From positions 62,001 through 126,000 of the forward strand of contig JAHDBD010000013.1 of NCBI GenBank assembly GCA_020630575.1: a stretch of 64,000 nt of DNA, in the 5' to 3' direction. This DNA comes from Bernardetia sp. Its GTDB lineage: Bacteria; Bacteroidota; Bacteroidia; Cytophagales; Bernardetiaceae. The notes under the pieces were generated by a model. The model saw only the letters and a list, made by a program, of their open reading frames with translations, had not been told where the DNA came from and searched no databases. Positions 17,073 through 26,470 of the stretch are shown piece by piece (position 1 is the stretch's first letter; each line of letters opens with the position of its first letter). Both the position numbers and the translations under genes were made by a program.

Positions 17073-17489
17073 CTACTTCGTCCAGTTCTCTGTTTTTAAT
17101 TCATCTATTCTACCAAAATGCTTGTTGTTATTGGTTATCAGAACAAAATTTTCAACGATAGCTGTTGCAGCAATCAAAATATCGTTGTGAGCAATACTAT
17201 TTCCTTCACTTCTTAGTTGTGTATAAATTTGTGCTGCTTTCTGTGCTACTTTTTTGCTGATTGGTAGAATGGTATGATTATTCAAAAATGCTTCAATTTC
17301 GACTGTTCGTTCTTTTGTATCTCCAAAATAAAGACCATTCAAAATCTCATAATAGGTAATAATACTGATGTTGATTTTTTGATATTCCTTCAAGTATTCA
17401 TTTACTTTTTGAGTTACTTTTTTTTCATTCTTTTTCTCATTTCTCAAAAAAAAGGACAGTGTATCGGTGTCTAATAAAATAGGTTTCAT
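17073..17489 (-). CDS. VapC-type PIN-domain ribonuclease, no antitoxin seen
   Basis: 138 residues with the acidic PIN-domain set: D7 in ILLDTDTLSFF, E48 in ITYYEILNGL, D103 in AHNDILIAATA and the late polar position in LITNNNKHF. PIN toxins of this type (VapC) cut tRNA or rRNA and are usually preceded by an antitoxin of 60-90 residues. Here the preceding gene is instead a 247-residue lipoprotein whose stop codon directly abuts the VapC start (stop 17490-17492, ATG 17487-17489). No antitoxin-sized frame lies on either side. The toxin may be an orphan, be paired in trans, or have been re-wired. Confidence 0.82.
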   Translation of the reverse strand: MKPILLDTDTLSFFLRNEKKNEKKVTQKVNEYLKEYQKINISIITYYEILNGLYFGDTKERTVEIEAFLNNHTILPISKKVAQKAAQIYTQLRSEGNSIAHNDILIAATAIVENFVLITNNNKHFGRIDELKTENWTK

Positions 17490-18233
17490 CTATTTCTTTA
17501 AATAGTCTTCTGTTGTATAAATTGCATTAATTATAATATTTTTATTTTCGCCTATTACAAACTCACTCAATCCGACATGAGATTTGTTTTTAGGATTCCA
17601 ATCATACGTATAACCGAGCTGTGTCCAAGGATATTTTTCATCTATTCGGCATTGATAATAACGACTAACTCTATTCTCGTTTACCCAACTCATATACGAA
17701 GTATCTGTATTTTCAGGGAAGCATAAATCACATTTATTATCTGTAATTTCACTATCAGGGCAAGGGCGAAATAAATCTTGAGGCTTTACCCAAAGTTCGA
17801 CAAAATAACTATAAGTAGCATTTGGTGGCAATCCTAATAATTGTTTGAGTCTTAGATTCACATTTTTAGTCTTTTCTTTTTTCATTCTCTCTACCAACTC
17901 TGGCGCAGTTGTGACCCATATTGGATAATTTCCAGTATTATAATGAGCAGAATCTAAATATTTTTCATAGTATGAAACATTTTGTTTCCAAGTAACCATT
18001 AAGATATACTCTTCATCATTAATTGTTTTTCGAATCAAATTAGTATTTTGAGGAGTAATAGAAACTAAATTAGTATAGACTTTTTCCACAGAAGGCGACA
18101 TAGAGTTTTCGATTGATTCTTGATACCATCCAAATTCTCTATCATAAGTAATTTTACCATCAACTATTTTGACAGATTGACAAGCTCCCAAAAACAGAAA
18201 TGCAACAAAAAAGAGTAGCTTAAAATTTTTCAT
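17490..18233 (-). CDS. Lipoprotein of unknown function, fused end-to-end with vapC
   Basis: 247 residues with a signal segment and lipobox LGACQ (Cys18). The mature part is soluble, with aromatic and charged residues and a Cys-containing segment (RPCPDSEITDNKCDLCFP). I recognise no domain. It would be membrane-anchored facing the periplasm or surface. Its stop codon abuts the VapC start codon, so the two are almost certainly co-transcribed and probably translationally coupled. No function is proposed. Confidence 0.65.
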   Translation of the reverse strand: MKNFKLLFFVAFLFLGACQSVKIVDGKITYDREFGWYQESIENSMSPSVEKVYTNLVSITPQNTNLIRKTINDEEYILMVTWKQNVSYYEKYLDSAHYNTGNYPIWVTTAPELVERMKKEKTKNVNLRLKQLLGLPPNATYSYFVELWVKPQDLFRPCPDSEITDNKCDLCFPENTDTSYMSWVNENRVSRYYQCRIDEKYPWTQLGYTYDWNPKNKSHVGLSEFVIGENKNIIINAIYTTEDYLKK

Positions 18234-20872: not shown

Positions 20873-23302
20873 CTACTCTTTAATAACGTGAGTAAAAAAT
20901 ACTTCTTCTTTAGTAATGACTTTCAAAACATAATTTCCAACTGGCAATTTAGCAAGATGTAAGTATATGTTTCCATTTATATCTAATGGGATTTGCTTTC
21001 CTTCATAATGCAAACGAATATTTCCAAAACCATCACTTAGAGTAACAATTGTATTCTCATCTAATTGAGGATACAAACTTTCTAACTCTTCTTTTTTACA
21101 CTCTTGACAATCCACTTTGAATATTGCTGTAATATCAGATTCTGCTGGATTGGGATATGCGTTTAATTCTACTTTACCATTGAATCCATCACAATCAATA
21201 ATTCTACCATTCATTTGTACTACTGTATGTACAATAGTTCTTGTTTCAGTCGTACCACAAGCATTTGTAACTCTATAAATTAAGGTAGTAGATTGATGTG
21301 GGAGATTAGGCGCACGCACTTGTCTAAAACCAAAGGCATCAGGAGCATCTATTACAAATGCTGGATTTGTACTTATCCATTCTTGTCTATCAGCAGTAAC
21401 TAAAGGAAAATTAGCTTCATCTAACCTAGCTCTGATTTTGAAAGAAGAATTAGGACAAGTTTCATTTTGTGCATTTAAGCCTGCGGTTTCTACATTTATG
21501 GCTGCTAAAGGCACTTTTCCAATTCGCATTTCTCGTTCCACAGTTACACTACAGCCTGTTCGGTTACTAGTAACTACAGCCTGAAGCGTATAAACACCAC
21601 TGGAAAAAGGAGTAACAAAACTGACTGTAGGTGCTCCTCTTGAAAGCAAAGGAAACAAAGGCAAGCTAGAGCCATTGTCGAAAAGAATACTATAACTCCA
21701 AGAAACAGAAGTATTGGCAGGAACACTAAACAAACTCACTACATTAGATTGATTTGGACAGATAGTTCTAGGAAAATCATCGCCAAAACGAGGAACTGGA
21801 GAAGTAGCCAAAACGGTATAAGTTCCAAACTGATTCAATGCTTGATTTCTACGCACTCGCAAATACAAACGTTCAGCATTGACAATATCACAAGGAATAG
21901 AAATCTGCCATTTGGTTTGATTTGGAACAGCAGACGAAACGATACGAGTTAGTAGTTGTGTTTCAACAGAAAGTCCTCTATCTTCTCCTGCATTAAAAAC
22001 CTCTATATCTTCTATAAAGTTAGCAATAGTAGATTCTACTGTAATTACATAATCATCTATAACTCCATTTGGAGGTGTTTCGATAGGAATCCAATCGGTA
22101 TTATCTATTACTTCATTGTAGATATTTTTATGGAAAGTATGAAGTTGTGGAATATTCAAATGTAATAAATGTTCTTGTTCTAGTCCACGTCTATTTGTAC
22201 TTAATGCTCCACTAACAGTATTATTAGGCTCATAAATATCTACTTGTCTTCCATTCAAATCTATTCGCCACCTTCCAGACCTTCCTCTTGGTGTATGTAA
22301 TAAAGTTGACCACATTACACCTACTTGCGTCTCTGTAAATGTTTTGCGACAACTTCTATTTCCGTATGCCATATAATTATCACCTAGAGGATGAAAACGC
22401 TCTCCCCAATAATCTTTTTTGTTACCTGTATAAGTACAAGTTGCAGTATTTATATTGTCTGTCAGTTTTGGGTCTGCTTCTGTATCACACAAAAAATCTC
22501 CTGTATAAGAACAACGTTTTACAATAGGTAAAAAAAGCAGATTTACAGGAAAAACCAAACAAGCAGGGTCGCCTGTCGCACCACGAGTAACAGGCTCACG
22601 TAAACACCATGTATTTCCTGCTGTAAACTGATGGGTATGAAATAAACCCAAATAATGACCTAGCTCATGTGCCATAGAAGTAGCTGAGTTCCTACTAGCA
22701 TATCTATTACGCTCCAAAACAATAAACTCTTTTGCTAAACCACTAAAATAGGTATCACCTCCAGTAGTAATATATACATTTATCGCTTTGTCATCATAGT
22801 AAGCTGAATTGCCCGAGCCACTTAAAAACAGTAAAATACGTGCAGCAGAAGGAGAAGTATTCTGAAAAACAACCTGCCTTGAACCCTTCATATAAAACTG
22901 AATACCTGAAGGAACTTCTGTACTACGAAAAGCATCATTGGCATCATCTACTAAGCGTTGGAGTTCTAATTCTTGAGGTAAATCATCATCCTCTCCATCT
23001 TTTAACAAGTTTGCAGGGTCAGAATTATTACCAGTAGTAAAAATCCAAAATCGAATTGGAATACGCCATTTAATATGAGGTACAACACGAGAATATTGAG
23101 ACGGAATGCCATCCACAGATCTCACACTATCCATAAAAGAAGGTAAATAATCAGGATTTCCAAACCATGGTAAGTTGGCTGCTTCTTGTATATTTACATT
23201 AGGGGTAGCACAGTCTTGTGCTTTAGTAGTAAAACTACATAGAAATAGAAAAATGAAAAAGCTAGTTTTTACGAATTGTAGCTGCTGGAATTCCTGTATC
23301 AT
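20873..23302 (-). CDS. Secreted M43-type metalloprotease with T9SS sorting domain
   Basis: The frame is open to an ATG at 23353, but ATG 23302 (MIQEFQQLQFVK) gives the best signal peptide, ending TTKAQ, and a protein of 809 residues. Order: signal peptide; ~50-residue propeptide (ATPNVNIQEAANLPWFGNPD); catalytic domain with the zinc motif HELGHYLGLFH (HExxHxxGxxH, ~residue 212 from this start) and Met-turn DNYMAYG, typical of pappalysin-like M43 proteases; Ig/PKD-like region (residues ~500-700); C-terminal sorting domain (LNAYPNPAESDITAIFKV... then GNYVLKVI) typical of type IX secretion cargo. The enzyme is probably exported to the surface or medium. Its start overlaps the upstream lipoprotein by 41 bases. 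This is the only intact protease in the four-cassette array. Confidence 0.88.
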   Translation of the reverse strand: MIQEFQQLQFVKTSFFIFLFLCSFTTKAQDCATPNVNIQEAANLPWFGNPDYLPSFMDSVRSVDGIPSQYSRVVPHIKWRIPIRFWIFTTGNNSDPANLLKDGEDDDLPQELELQRLVDDANDAFRSTEVPSGIQFYMKGSRQVVFQNTSPSAARILLFLSGSGNSAYYDDKAINVYITTGGDTYFSGLAKEFIVLERNRYASRNSATSMAHELGHYLGLFHTHQFTAGNTWCLREPVTRGATGDPACLVFPVNLLFLPIVKRCSYTGDFLCDTEADPKLTDNINTATCTYTGNKKDYWGERFHPLGDNYMAYGNRSCRKTFTETQVGVMWSTLLHTPRGRSGRWRIDLNGRQVDIYEPNNTVSGALSTNRRGLEQEHLLHLNIPQLHTFHKNIYNEVIDNTDWIPIETPPNGVIDDYVITVESTIANFIEDIEVFNAGEDRGLSVETQLLTRIVSSAVPNQTKWQISIPCDIVNAERLYLRVRRNQALNQFGTYTVLATSPVPRFGDDFPRTICPNQSNVVSLFSVPANTSVSWSYSILFDNGSSLPLFPLLSRGAPTVSFVTPFSSGVYTLQAVVTSNRTGCSVTVEREMRIGKVPLAAINVETAGLNAQNETCPNSSFKIRARLDEANFPLVTADRQEWISTNPAFVIDAPDAFGFRQVRAPNLPHQSTTLIYRVTNACGTTETRTIVHTVVQMNGRIIDCDGFNGKVELNAYPNPAESDITAIFKVDCQECKKEELESLYPQLDENTIVTLSDGFGNIRLHYEGKQIPLDINGNIYLHLAKLPVGNYVLKVITKEEVFFTHVIKE

Positions 23303-23747
23303 TAGTTGTTGATTCAATAAGTTTATTATTATAAAAAAAACGTCCATAGTCAAGTAAATATTTACAAGTTTTTTTATTTACTCTATACTCATGACGGATG
23401 GTATCAGTATCTTGAAAGGATAAATAAAGATAATAGGTTTTTGTAATATCCTCTTCTTTAGGGGTGTCTCTTTCTATGTAAACAAGAGAGCATCTACCTC
23501 CTACATCAGCCATAAAATCTTTGACGATATTATAATTCTCGTCATAAAGTTTTACACTGTCTTCATGGATATAACCAAATGCTCCTATTATTGGCTGCCA
23601 ATTATTAGGAGAGCGTTCATAGCGAAGAGAAAAATTTTGCCTTTTTTCTCCATCATCATAATCTCCAAATTCGTCAGGACAGGAACTACTACAGCTAAAA
23701 AAGGACAGCATCGCCATCCAAAAAGCTATTAATTTTAGTTTTTTCAT
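23262..23747 (-). CDS. Array lipoprotein 1 (partner of the intact protease)
   Basis: 161 residues. The signal sequence LIAFWMAMLSFFSC ends in a lipobox (Cys19). The mature part has no family I recognise. It shares with its three paralogues the pattern YYLYLSFQDTDTIR, then a Cys-Lys pair, then YGRFFYNN near the C-terminus. The last 41 bases overlap the start of the intact metalloprotease in another frame, implying translational coupling. A lipoprotein so tightly tied to a secreted protease could be an inhibitor, chaperone or surface receptor for it; that is inference. The middle (residues ~20-100) is the most divergent part among the four copies. Confidence 0.8.
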   Translation of the reverse strand: MKKLKLIAFWMAMLSFFSCSSSCPDEFGDYDDGEKRQNFSLRYERSPNNWQPIIGAFGYIHEDSVKLYDENYNIVKDFMADVGGRCSLVYIERDTPKEEDITKTYYLYLSFQDTDTIRHEYRVNKKTCKYLLDYGRFFYNNKLIESTTNDTGIPAATIRKN

Positions 23748-23784
23748 TTTAATTGGTTTTAGTAATATTAAAAAAATGCAAGTG

Positions 23785-23792
23785 CAAATGTA
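23785..23792 (-). promoter_or_regulatory. -7 box of cassette 1
   Basis: TACATTTG on the minus strand, a perfect TAnnTTTG, 38 bases upstream of the array lipoprotein 1 start. The box and its flanks recur at the same distance in cassettes 2 and 3. Confidence 0.65.
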
Positions 23793-23868
23793 GGTATTTA
23801 TTTCTTATAGTAGATTATTTTATGATAAAATTTATTGTTTTTGTAATAATATAGGCAAAAAAATAAGG

Positions 23869-24153
23869 CTAGATGCCCTCTGTCAAAATCCAAAAACGTA
23901 TAGGAATACGCCAAACGATATTATTTTCTACTCTAGAGTTTGAAATATTATGAATTGTATTGATACTGTCCATAAATGCAGGTAAATAGTTTGGGTTACC
24001 AAACCATGGTAAGTTTGCAGCTTCTTGTATATCGACATCAGGTGTCGCACATTCTTGTGCTTGTACTGAAAAGCAAAAAGTACAGAATAAAAAGGCAATT
24101 AACAGTTTAGTTTTTGTAAGATATTGCAGCAGGGATAAAATCTTCATTTTCAT
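23869..24153 (-). pseudogene. Truncated metalloprotease start, cassette 2
   Basis: An intact short frame encoding a signal peptide (KLLIAFLFCTFCFSVQAQ) and the propeptide (ATPDVDIQEAANLPWFGNPN), ending WRIPIRFWILTEGI then stop, just where the catalytic domain would begin. The start chosen is ATG 24153; the frame is open to 24237. It overlaps lipoprotein 2 by 47 bases. It may be a degraded duplicate, a recombination donor, or a real secreted propeptide of ~55 residues. The frame carries no internal stop or frameshift before the common truncation point. Confidence 0.65.
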
Positions 24154-24598
24154 TTTGAGCAAAGAGTTGATTGTTATAAAAAAATTTACCATAAACCAAA
24201 AGTGGCTTACATTTATTTTCATTGATCTTGTAATCAATGCGTATTGTATCTGTATCTTGATAGCTTAAATACAAATAATAGGTTTGAGATAAATCTTCGC
24301 CACGAGGTGTATTTTCATCTGCATGTTGAAAAGTTACTATGTCTCCACTTAAATAAAAAGTGGGTTCTACTTCATAATTTTCATTGTAAAGTTGTACACT
24401 ATCTTCTTGTATATAACCATAAGGTTGTATTACATTTTGCCAGTTTCCATCAGCTTTTTTATATTTAACTAATACAGACTGATTTAACCCTCCTTCATCG
24501 TCATCTCCTGCTTTGAGCTTATCAGGACAAAGAGATTCAGAGCAGCTAGAAAAGGACAGCATCGCCATCCAAAAAGCTATTAATTTTATTTTTTTCAT
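24107..24598 (-). CDS. Array lipoprotein 2
   Basis: 163 residues, lipobox FSSC (Cys19), then a polar D/G-rich linker (AGDDDEGG). It shares YYLYLSYQDTDTIR, the KCK pair and YGKFFYNNQL with its paralogues. The signal-peptide DNA is almost identical to the other copies while the mature region has diverged strongly. It overlaps the truncated protease frame of its own cassette. Function unknown; see lipoprotein 1 for the inferred link with the protease. Confidence 0.78.
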   Translation of the reverse strand: MKKIKLIAFWMAMLSFSSCSESLCPDKLKAGDDDEGGLNQSVLVKYKKADGNWQNVIQPYGYIQEDSVQLYNENYEVEPTFYLSGDIVTFQHADENTPRGEDLSQTYYLYLSYQDTDTIRIDYKINENKCKPLLVYGKFFYNNQLFAQNENEDFIPAAISYKN

Positions 24599-24635
24599 TT
24601 TAATTGATTTTAGTGATATTGAAAAAATGCAAGTG

Positions 24636-24643
24636 CAAATGTA
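24636..24643 (-). promoter_or_regulatory. -7 box of cassette 2
   Basis: TACATTTG on the minus strand, 38 bases upstream of the lipoprotein 2 start; same spacing as in cassette 1. Confidence 0.65.
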
Positions 24644-24720
24644 AGTATTTATTTCTTATAGCAAAGTATTTTATGATAAAATTTATTGGTTTTGTAATAC
24701 TATAGACAAAAAAAATAAGG

Positions 24721-25002
24721 CTAGATGCCCTCTGTCAAAATCCAAAAACGAATTGGAATGCGCCATACGATATTATTTTCAACTCTAGAATTTGAGATAT
24801 TATGCACCCTATTAATACTATCCATAAAAGAAGGAAGATAATCAGGATTACCGAACCAAGGCAACTGTTTCATTTCTTCAAAAGACAGATCAGGCGTATT
24901 ACAGTCTTGTGCTTTTAAATCTAAAATTACAAAAATTAGAAACAAAATAATAAGTAGGATATTATTTTTTTTCAAACGAGGCAACAGGGATAAAATTTTC
25001 AT
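24721..25002 (-). pseudogene. Truncated metalloprotease start, cassette 3
   Basis: Short frame with signal peptide (LLIILFLIFVILDLKAQ) and a divergent propeptide (NTPDLSFEEMKQLPWFGNPD), ending exactly as cassette 2 (WRIPIRFWILTEGI, stop). Start at ATG 25002 or 25017. It overlaps lipoprotein 3 by 41 bases (56 from the longer start). The propeptide tail (NISNSRVENNIVW) is shared with cassette 2 and differs from the intact gene. Confidence 0.65.
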
Positions 25003-25453
25003 TTTCAGATGATTCAATTAGTTGATTATTATAAAAAAAGCGTCCATAAGCAAGTGTCTTTTTACACTTACTATCATTGATTTTAAATTCAAAACGCATG
25101 GTATCTGTGTCGTGATAAGTAAGGTATAGATAGTATGTTTGTATGATATCTATTCCTCTAGGGGTATGTTTATCAGCATAAGTAAGATAAAAATGATTAC
25201 TATTTGGGTCATATCTATCATATAAATCTCTATTCTCATCATAAATACGAACAGTATCCCACGTATAGATTCCATTTATTCCTATCATAGATTGCCAGTT
25301 TCCAGGGGATATTTCATAGCGTAAAGAGATACCTTGTTCAAGTGTTTGTTCAGTTCCGTCTGTATCTCTAAATGGGTCATCACAAAGAGATTCAGAGCAG
25401 CTAGAAAAGGACAGCATCGCCATCCAAAAAGCTATTAATTTTAGCTTATTCAT
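24962..25453 (-). CDS. Array lipoprotein 3
   Basis: 163 residues, lipobox FSSC (Cys19), closest to lipoprotein 4: both start MNKLKLIAFW and share SESLCDDPF, then GNWQSMIGINGIY. It keeps the family pattern YYLYLTYHDTDTMR, KCKK and YGRFFYNNQLIES. A Cys in SLCDD and the Cys of the KCK pair could form a disulfide. It is preceded by its own promoter box and overlaps the truncated protease frame behind it. Confidence 0.78.
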   Translation of the reverse strand: MNKLKLIAFWMAMLSFSSCSESLCDDPFRDTDGTEQTLEQGISLRYEISPGNWQSMIGINGIYTWDTVRIYDENRDLYDRYDPNSNHFYLTYADKHTPRGIDIIQTYYLYLTYHDTDTMRFEFKINDSKCKKTLAYGRFFYNNQLIESSENENFIPVASFEKK

Positions 25454-25490
25454 TTTAATTGAGTTTTAGTTTATTAAAAAAATGCAAGTG

Positions 25491-25498
25491 CAAATGTA
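25491..25498 (-). promoter_or_regulatory. -7 box of cassette 3
   Basis: TACATTTG on the minus strand, 38 bases upstream of the lipoprotein 3 start. Confidence 0.65.
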
Positions 25499-25588
25499 GG
25501 ATTTTATTTTATAAGTAAAAATATTTTATCATAAAGTTTATTGGTTTTGTAATAATATAGACAAAAAAATAAGGCTAGATGCCCTCTG

Positions 25589-25846
25589 TCAAAATCGAAT
25601 TGGAATGCGCCATTTTATATGGGGTACGATACGAGAATACTGGGAGGGAATGCAATCTACAGCTCTCACACTATCCATAAAGGAAGGTAAATAATCAGGA
25701 TTGCCAAACCATGGTAAGTTCGCAGCCTCTTGTATATCTACATCAGGTGTAGCACATTCTTTGGCTTTTAAATTCAACGAAAACAAGATTAGACAAGCAA
25801 GAATAAAAAAATTAGTTTTTTTCAAATGAAGCATAAGGGATTCCAT
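25589..25846 (-). pseudogene. Truncated metalloprotease start, cassette 4
   Basis: 85-codon frame with signal peptide (FFILACLILFSLNLKAK) and propeptide (ATPDVDIQEAANLPWFGNPD) ending WRIPIRF then stop. It is seven bases shorter at the junction than cassettes 2 and 3: a TTTTG-flanked heptamer is missing, which brings a TGA into frame. Its propeptide tail (PSQYSRIVPHIK) matches the intact protease rather than cassettes 2 and 3. It overlaps lipoprotein 4 by 35 bases. Confidence 0.65.
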
Positions 25847-26303
25847 TTTTATTTGTTATTGATTCGATTAGTTGATTATTATAAAAAAAGCGTCCGTATG
25901 CTAGTCTCTTCTTACAGTTACTATCATTAATTTTATATTCGTGACGCAAAGTATCTGTATCTTGATAAGTAAGGTATAAATAATGAGTTGTTACTAAATC
26001 CACTCCTCTCGGAGAGTCTTTATCGGCAAAGGTAAAATCAATTCCTTGACTATCTGCTGTGCATCTAACACATAGATTTCCATCTTCATCTCTTAATTGA
26101 ACGGAATCTAAGCTATAAATTCCATTTATCCCTATCATAGATTGCCAGTTCCCGAGAGAGACTTCGTAGCGTAAAGATACACCTTGACGAAGAGTGATTT
26201 CAGCACCATCACTAAGACTAAATGGGTCATCACAAAGAGATTCAGAGCAGCTAGAAAAGGACAGCATCGCCATCCAAAAAGCTATTAATTTTAGTTTATT
26301 CAT
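25812..26303 (-). CDS. Array lipoprotein 4
   Basis: 163 residues, lipobox FSSC (Cys19). Most similar to lipoprotein 3 in the N-terminal half, with a distinct Cys-containing segment (GNLCVRCTADSQG) in the middle. It shares HYLYLTYQDTDTLR, NCKK and YGRFFYNNQLIES. It is the most upstream copy, and its -7 box is altered (TACATTTA), so it may be expressed less than the others. Confidence 0.78.
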   Translation of the reverse strand: MNKLKLIAFWMAMLSFSSCSESLCDDPFSLSDGAEITLRQGVSLRYEVSLGNWQSMIGINGIYSLDSVQLRDEDGNLCVRCTADSQGIDFTFADKDSPRGVDLVTTHYLYLTYQDTDTLRHEYKINDSNCKKRLAYGRFFYNNQLIESITNKNGIPYASFEKN

Positions 26304-26340
26304 TTTAATTGAGTTTTATTTTATTGAAAAAATGCAAGTG

Positions 26341-26348
26341 TAAATGTA
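26341..26348 (-). promoter_or_regulatory. Altered -7 box of cassette 4
   Basis: TACATTTA on the minus strand at the position where cassettes 1-3 have TACATTTG. The invariant final G of the consensus is replaced. Confidence 0.5.
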
Positions 26349-26470
26349 GGATTTTATTTTATAAGTAAAACTATTTTATCATAAAGTTTATTGGTTTTGT
26401 AATAATATAGACAAAAAATAAGGCTAGATGTCCTCTGTATAAAATATTCTAATATAACCTTGCAAACAAA

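Follow-up and report, generated by a model that had tools for sequence, protein, structure and literature searches.

The DNA analysed here (the window: 64,000 nucleotides of Bernardetia sp., genome G000) contains a tandem array of four cassettes of about 850 bp on the minus strand, running from 26440 to 20873. Each cassette consists of a leader, a small lipoprotein gene (161–163 aa) and the overlapping start of a protease gene, but only the last in transcription order continues into a complete M43-type protease, the other three being truncated starts. It resembles a long-standing, recombining store of genes for immunity or protease inhibition, and not fresh duplication debris. By analogy with the potempins of Tannerella forsythia, we hold with a little better than even confidence that it is a potempin-like pair of protease and inhibitor, in which the inhibitor unit was multiplied together with the protease start and kept as a recombining array of the immunity type.

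Layout of the array

A sequence-only reading of the window had described four cassettes with one intact protease, and this is confirmed by the open reading frames (ORFs), by the spacing of the units (851, 855 and 850 bp) and by the sequence of the minus strand. The features are as follows:

26303-25812, minus strand: lipoprotein 1, 163 aa
25834-25589, minus strand: truncated protease start 1, with a 7-nt slip at its end
25453-24962, minus strand: lipoprotein 2, 163 aa
25002-24721, minus strand: truncated protease start 2
24598-24107, minus strand: lipoprotein 3, 163 aa
24153-23869, minus strand: truncated protease start 3, with signal peptide, propeptide and the first residues of the catalytic domain
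23747-23262, minus strand: lipoprotein 4, 161 aa, adjoining the intact protease and 96% identical to the single copy in G003, a genome of the same species
23302-20873, minus strand: complete secreted M43-type metalloprotease, ORF of 809 aa

The start codons of the protease frames sit within the lipoprotein genes, with an overlap of 41 nt in the case of the intact protease. The lipoproteins are, as had been noted, divergent and of about 162 residues (163, 163, 163 and 161 aa), and the DNA of their mature parts is only 54–75% identical. At the protein level, the mature lipoproteins of the window share 46–51% identity in five of the six pairs and 66% in the sixth.

Origin of the truncated copies

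Truncated copies 2 and 3 end in ...TTTTTGGATTTTGACAGAGGGCATCTAG and have the same join, TTTTGGATTTTGACAGAGGGCATCTAG. The intact protease reads TTTTGGATTTTTACTACTGG at the join point, and the native flank above cassette 1 (26445-26424) reads ATTTTATACAGAGGACATCTAG, which is the right-hand half of the join. Because this flank carries the right-hand half, the join is read as a fusion between approximately codon 88 of the protease, a short way into the catalytic domain, and the leader natively found upstream, the two sides meeting in a short stretch that they share. In truncated copy 1, 7 nt of a direct repeat (ATTTTGG/ATTTTGA) are missing and the frame is a few codons shorter; this loss is read as later than the join. 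The common end point previously seen in the three truncated frames is this one join, with the earlier stop in copy 1, and since a single join is common to all three, the array is taken to have begun as a tandem duplication.

The identical join is found in the fragments at both loci of the related genome G005, and fragment C of G001 has the join at the same position, so the duplication is older than these species. Fragment A of G001 ends near the join point, but with a different sequence. Amplification, one of the options raised earlier, thus holds as an origin, given the one shared join, but a recent amplification is ruled out by the divergence of the mature lipoproteins, by the presence of the join in other species and by lipoprotein classes that are orthologous across species. 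Nor is the array an assembly duplicate, because the mature lipoprotein DNA is so little alike; an assembly artefact is further ruled out by an array at the same place in the one-contig genome G001.

The locus in related genomes

Family-1 lipoproteins, the type found in the window, are present in 5 of the 11 genomes of the family that were searched, and 12 of the 13 genes in these five genomes are intact. G003 has one lipoprotein–protease pair at the same place. This is best read as a loss of copies, because G000 has its join in common with G001 and G005; the alternative is a collapse in assembly. In G001, the array comprises four lipoproteins (one frameshifted) and a full protease, and of its fragments, A is open, B is broken and C stops early. 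G005 has lost the protease but retains three lipoproteins, one here and two at a second locus. At both G005 loci, the same repeated sequence replaces the middle of the lost protease (L024 from 6764 and L023 from 7803) and is followed by a C-terminal protease remnant of 28–40 residues. In G006, a single lipoprotein accompanies a protease that contains a stop codon, runs off the contig end and does not adjoin the M49 gene.

Among the eight fragments known in the genus, four (f1, f2, f3 and G001_fA) are open from the signal peptide through the propeptide, G005a_f is open without a clear signal peptide, and three (G001_fB, G001_fC and G005b_f1) are broken or stop early. The earlier statement that all frames are open is therefore true of the window but not of its relatives.

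The array lies between the gene for a DUF3276 protein upstream (26931-26524) and that for an M49 peptidase downstream (20570-18411). The locus evolves fast, since the protease-side lipoproteins are only 62–74% identical between species, whereas the neighbouring M49 peptidase is 91–98% identical among G000, G003, G001 and G005.

Recombination between cassettes

Between G000 and G003, mature lipoprotein 4 is identical at 137 of 140 aa and the catalytic domain at 320 of 320 aa, whereas DNA identity falls to 86% in the propeptide, 75% in the promoter and 81% in the lipoprotein signal peptide. The diverged propeptide stretch is sharply delimited, its flanks being 97.5–100% identical to G003 in ten 40-column blocks on either side:

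23063-23222, minus strand: propeptide stretch diverged from G003, putative conversion tract, 137 of 160 columns identical

Within G000, the four lipoprotein signal peptides are 93–98% alike in DNA, compared with the 54–75% of the mature parts. The divergent patches and the similar signal peptides are read as conversion tracts.

In the lipoprotein tree, the protease-side copies of G000, G003, G001 and G005a (the last beside a protease remnant) form one clade with both G005b copies (bootstrap 93). The lipoprotein beside the G006 protease groups instead with the most upstream copy of G001 (bootstrap 100). Loss of cassettes by recombination through the propeptide homology would give that grouping, although other histories are possible.

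Selective constraint

Codon models indicate that the lipoproteins are under purifying selection. The best grid omega was 0.15 for the set of l4, G003, G001_D and G005a (twice the log-likelihood difference, 2ΔlnL, of 132 against omega = 1), 0.2 for l1, l2 and G001_B (2ΔlnL 88) and 0.4 for the three G005 lipoproteins, whose protease is lost (2ΔlnL 17).

The truncated propeptides also show constraint. A clade made up of fragments only (f2, f3, G001_fA and G005a_f) has an ultrafast bootstrap of 94, or 93 when the tree is repeated without the G006 row, which from its stop codon onwards is shifted by one codon in the alignment and whose pair values were not used. The best grid omega for this clade is 0.1 (2ΔlnL 63 against omega = 1), and the ratio of nonsynonymous to synonymous differences (pN/pS) in its six pairs is 0.20–0.49, with Fisher p values from 1e-11 to 9e-3. 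In the second half of the fragment, only two of the six pairs are significant, and f3 seems to combine the two propeptide types as a mosaic. Under neutral drift by substitutions only, a 95-codon frame stayed open in 621 of 5000 runs at 0.15 changes per site and in 163 of 5000 at 0.30. The constraint would suggest that the truncated propeptides were functional for part of their history, and the decay in relatives that they were not always so.

The lipoproteins and the protease

The lipoproteins have a lipobox (identified by eye), invariant cysteines at positions 19, 23 and 128 and a conserved DTDT...YG...YNN region. Mean column identity is 66% across an alignment of 12 lipoproteins of the genus. 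A comparison against NCBIfam gave a match to the signal peptide only, below the cut-off. An AlphaFold2 (AF2) model built from five sequences is all-β, with a mean predicted local distance difference test (pLDDT) score of 74. Profile–profile comparison links the two lipoprotein types of the genus with 85% probability (E 6e-6).

The complete protease of the window has a signal peptide, a propeptide with the sequence QDCATP, the zinc motif HELGHYLGLFH and the Met-turn DNYMAY. The HExxHxxGxxH motif, the Met-turn and a weak match to Pfam PF05572 (25.4 bits, above the cut-off of 23) place it in M43, and its closest pappalysin in the PDB is a weak match (E 0.11). It is probably exported by the type IX secretion system (T9SS): its own T9SS tail (Por_Secre_tail) scores 15.6 bits, below the cut-off of 27, but the G001 ortholog reaches 34.1 and a paralogue from G006 (L108) 66.7 bits.

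The propeptide contains one cysteine, as a cysteine switch would need. All copies with an open frame at that point have it, G005b_f1 being broken there. The residue that follows is A, S, N, T or D, and Gly is found only in G001_fC and several distant relatives; the Cys-Gly dipeptide reported for mirolysin is not consistently kept. An AF2 model of the zymogen was unusable (pLDDT 28.5).

Leaders and promoters

A leader element, GGCATCTAGCCTTATTTTTT, is found upstream of 12 of the 13 family-1 lipoprotein genes, the one without it being the G001 copy that has the frameshift; this count leaves out a partial remnant in G006:C42. A search of seven genomes of the genus, allowing up to two mismatches, gave 12 sites, all of them upstream of family-1 lipoprotein genes. 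A genome-wide role for the element is ruled out by the lack of any site elsewhere in these seven genomes, and a differently worded leader pattern had no matches in the window's own genome. The elements in the window are:

26413-26432, minus strand: cassette 1, leader element GACATCTAGCCTTATTTTTT, not terminator-like in the scan
25564-25583, minus strand: cassette 2, leader hairpin and T-run
24710-24729, minus strand: cassette 3, leader hairpin and T-run
23858-23877, minus strand: cassette 4, leader hairpin and T-run

The leader folds into a 5-bp hairpin of modest stability (-5.8 to -6 kcal/mol, z from -1.6 to -3.0 in four examples), and three of the four window leaders are terminator-like in a scan that returned 12 sites against 2.6 expected. 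The element may insulate the cassettes from each other, or it may belong to a regulatory leader.

Reading of the sequence also identifies in every cassette a box resembling TACATTTG, which we take to be a putative -7 box on the basis of the Bacteroidota consensus:

26341-26348, minus strand: cassette 1, putative -7 box TACATTTA
25491-25498, minus strand: cassette 2, putative -7 box TACATTTG
24636-24643, minus strand: cassette 3, putative -7 box TACATTTG
23785-23792, minus strand: cassette 4, putative -7 box TACATTTG

The promoter previously assigned to each cassette is thus matched by a putative -7 box in all four, but gains nothing from a sigma-70 scan, which was uninformative (33 sites against 27.4 expected).

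Elsewhere in the window, a PIN-like (VapC-type) frame (17073-17489) lies beside a small lipoprotein-like frame (17490-18233), both named by eye.

The cassette in other genomes and G/C tracts

A profile of both lipoprotein types has matches in 23 of 291 genomes of the order. A lipoprotein directly upstream of an M43-like gene is found at eight loci in seven genomes of two families (G000, G003, G001, G006 with two, G002, G185 and G130). At three of these (G006:C22, G185 and G130), the protease frame is interrupted as assembled. In G185 (L095:7277-9569), the frame breaks right after HEIGHFFG, with no long tract, through either decay or an assembly error. G006 also has a divergent, paralogous array (L108:7281-11937) in which a lipoprotein and a truncated start occur twice, followed by a lipoprotein and a complete protease with a strong T9SS tail. 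A second site in G001 has a lipoprotein, a fragment and a lipoprotein, with no protease. In G111, from another family, a 4-kb contig (L105:1430-2794) carries a lipoprotein, a propeptide fragment and a lipoprotein; RHS-like frames, named by eye, follow this cassette. Among scans of genome contigs, one had no match and another gave one locus, in an uncultured Cytophagales metagenome-assembled genome.

In several relatives, runs of 10–15 C or G occur between the propeptide and the catalytic domain, leaving the two parts out of frame as assembled (two loci in G010, one each in G009 and G130). These candidate phase-variable proteases have their tracts at:

L117:4221-4231, C/G run at the propeptide/catalytic border
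L120:1138-1152, C/G run at the propeptide/catalytic border
L119:4991-5000, C/G run at the propeptide/catalytic border
L102:3465-3474, C/G run at the propeptide/catalytic border

In G009 and G010, 8 of the 14 distinct runs of at least 10 fall within or next to the leader or propeptide of an HExxH frame (3 of 5 and 5 of 9, respectively), while the remaining six are, as far as seen, not at such genes. Further long G tracts occur in the leaders of HExxH proteases on L129, L130, L133, L134 and L136 of these two genomes. Two tract-bearing genes tested for M43 scored 71 and 77.5 bits. Eight genomes were searched for runs of at least 10: G130 has one, at the protease border, and G000, G003 and G006 have none. 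The sole run found in G001, of 10 (L022:10737-10746), is inside lipoprotein A of the array and in frame as assembled; that found in G005, also of 10 (L138:2534-2543), lies just before the start of a lipoprotein-like, open frame of 576 residues.

The tracts in these proteases may point to phase variation, although homopolymer assembly errors are possible. A gene with an out-of-frame border tract would yield a signal peptide and propeptide, like the truncated copies of the window. In the open literature searched, we found no report of phase variation of T9SS proteases and nothing relevant on phase variation of metalloproteases in Bacteroidetes.

Comparison with known systems

The KLIKK proteases of Tannerella forsythia are directly preceded by potempin lipoproteins that are said to inhibit them (PMC7296668, PMC4404884), and mirolysin, the M43-type member, is described as a zymogen with a cysteine-bearing propeptide and a Cys-Gly switch (PMC6949598). 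The Bernardetia pair is alike in that the gene of a small lipoprotein immediately precedes, on the same strand, that of a secreted protease, and also in its cysteine-bearing propeptide (as in mirolysin) and in the high, correlated variability of the pair (PMC7296668, PMC4404884, PMC6949598). It differs in having up to four lipoproteins and truncated starts per protease instead of one inhibitor, in the absence of detectable lipoprotein homology and in lacking the KLIKK C-terminus: the window protease ends in THVIKE and that of G001 in KHVIKQ.

In the type VII secretion system arrays esaG and tipC, non-identical immunity paralogues stand in tandem, and recombination through conserved blocks adds and removes copies; a lipoprotein signal is predicted for TipC, and a toxin-fragment pseudogene is present at the related tsaI locus (PMC9484751). 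The array described here likewise has tandem, non-identical paralogues, recombination through conserved blocks and changes in copy number. However, the unit in esaG/tipC is an immunity gene, whereas each unit here also includes the beginning of an enzyme gene, and that enzyme is a protease secreted by a Gram-negative organism.

Gingipain profragments reportedly inhibit their parent protease. The truncated starts resemble them in being propeptide-derived, but are encoded separately in the genome. For propeptide-like inhibitors (SpeB, Spi), nothing was found in the open literature searched; for tandem or duplicated protease inhibitors, the matches listed were eukaryotic cases only, and an array combining an inhibitor-like gene with a piece of an enzyme gene in each unit was not described among the matches listed. 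The earlier statement that no such system has been described went too far, since potempin/KLIKK pairs and the immunity arrays of esaG/tipC are of a closely similar kind.

Interpretation

The small lipoprotein, whose gene overlaps that of a zymogenic M43-type protease, would most likely bind and inhibit the protease and so protect the producer. The unit of leader, promoter, lipoprotein, signal peptide and propeptide, but not the active enzyme, would have been multiplied by an ancient tandem duplication that had one breakpoint in the upstream leader and the other a short way into the catalytic domain. The extra lipoproteins would then have diverged, and a plausible reason for their retention is immunity to variant proteases made by kin or neighbours. 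Matching flanks on the 5' side (promoter and signal peptide) and the 3' side (propeptide) would let the cassettes recombine, which would remove copies, convert the propeptide of the intact gene and perhaps swap the lipoprotein beside the protease. The potempin analogy and the retention of lipoproteins in G005, where the protease is gone, make an inhibitor or immunity role the best-supported function. What the sequences show is the anatomy of the array, its shared join and age, the constraint on the lipoproteins and the mosaicism; inhibition and a protective role are inferred by analogy, and selection for variety would be a further inference.

Several results weigh against this reading. The lipoproteins have no Pfam family, a sequence search of the PDB gave nothing better than E 0.9, and the best PDB match of their AF2 model in Foldseek has E 0.16. 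For these reasons, homology to the potempins is unproven, and the test, a PDB sequence and fold search with a library in which potempin entries were not confirmed, lends no support either way. Weaker lipoprotein relatives without a nearby protease occur at 13 loci in 12 genomes, as judged by the protease motifs used and with some contigs being short (matches in G178 and G106 are left out). The only other family-1 array with an intact protease, that of G001, is partly decayed.

Alternatively, the array may be the simple remains of a duplication, with dead truncated starts and extra lipoproteins that are redundant paralogues being lost. This is possible, if rather unlikely. It is consistent with the single pair in G003, a genome of the same species, and with the decay that had been proposed in advance as a sign of mere debris; that check gave a mixed result, since one G001 lipoprotein is frameshifted, three of the eight fragments are decayed and the G005a fragment has no clear signal peptide, yet the fragment-only clade is constrained (pN/pS 0.20–0.49, 2ΔlnL 63). 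Neutral drift would also seldom keep a 95-codon frame open, as the simulations indicate, and recurrence of the cassette elsewhere would not be expected from one accident. The constraint itself must be read with the weak second half of the fragment and the mosaic f3 in mind, as well as possible past exchange with full genes. Another possibility, that the lipoproteins are partners of the protease (surface anchors, secretion chaperones or substrate receptors) and not its inhibitors, would fit the tight overlap and co-occurrence, as any partner would, and the relatives that exist without a protease. We consider it improbable, since the lipoproteins were multiplied without the enzyme and kept after its loss in G005, which protection would explain better than assistance.

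A dedicated variation system, in which the one active protease receives other lipoproteins or propeptides from the extra cassettes, might be argued from the propeptide conversion tract between G000 and G003, the homogenised promoter and signal peptide in G000 and the other lipoprotein class beside the interrupted G006 protease. However, every cassette comes with a start and a promoter-like region of its own, and nothing obvious marks the copies as silent; among the window frames, no gene stood out as a recombinase, although none was searched for; and the mature lipoprotein next to the protease is nearly the same in G000 as in G003. The mosaics are accounted for by ordinary homologous recombination, and such a system is very improbable. 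The donor option of the sequence-only reading is thereby supported in so far as cassettes recombine, but nothing points to a dedicated switching machine; of its three options (donor system, inhibitor bank and recent amplification), each is partly true.

A wider and doubtful reading is that the secreted M43 proteases of Cytophagales form a contingency system in which encoding of the propeptide half is constant and that of the catalytic half optional. In the Bernardetia genus, recombination of truncated cassettes would bring this about; relatives would rely on slippage of long G/C tracts, placed either in the leader or where propeptide and catalytic domain meet. Free propeptides and variable lipoproteins would then provide two layers of switchable protection against a cell's own proteases and those of its neighbours.

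If the inhibitor-array reading is right, it would connect potempin-like protease–inhibitor pairs with the immunity arrays known from interbacterial conflict, and the window would offer a natural matched set, several lipoproteins against one protease, for measuring inhibitor specificity. The repeated retention of a bare propeptide, together with the tract-bearing protease genes of relatives, would open phase-variable secreted proteolysis in Bacteroidota to direct tests.

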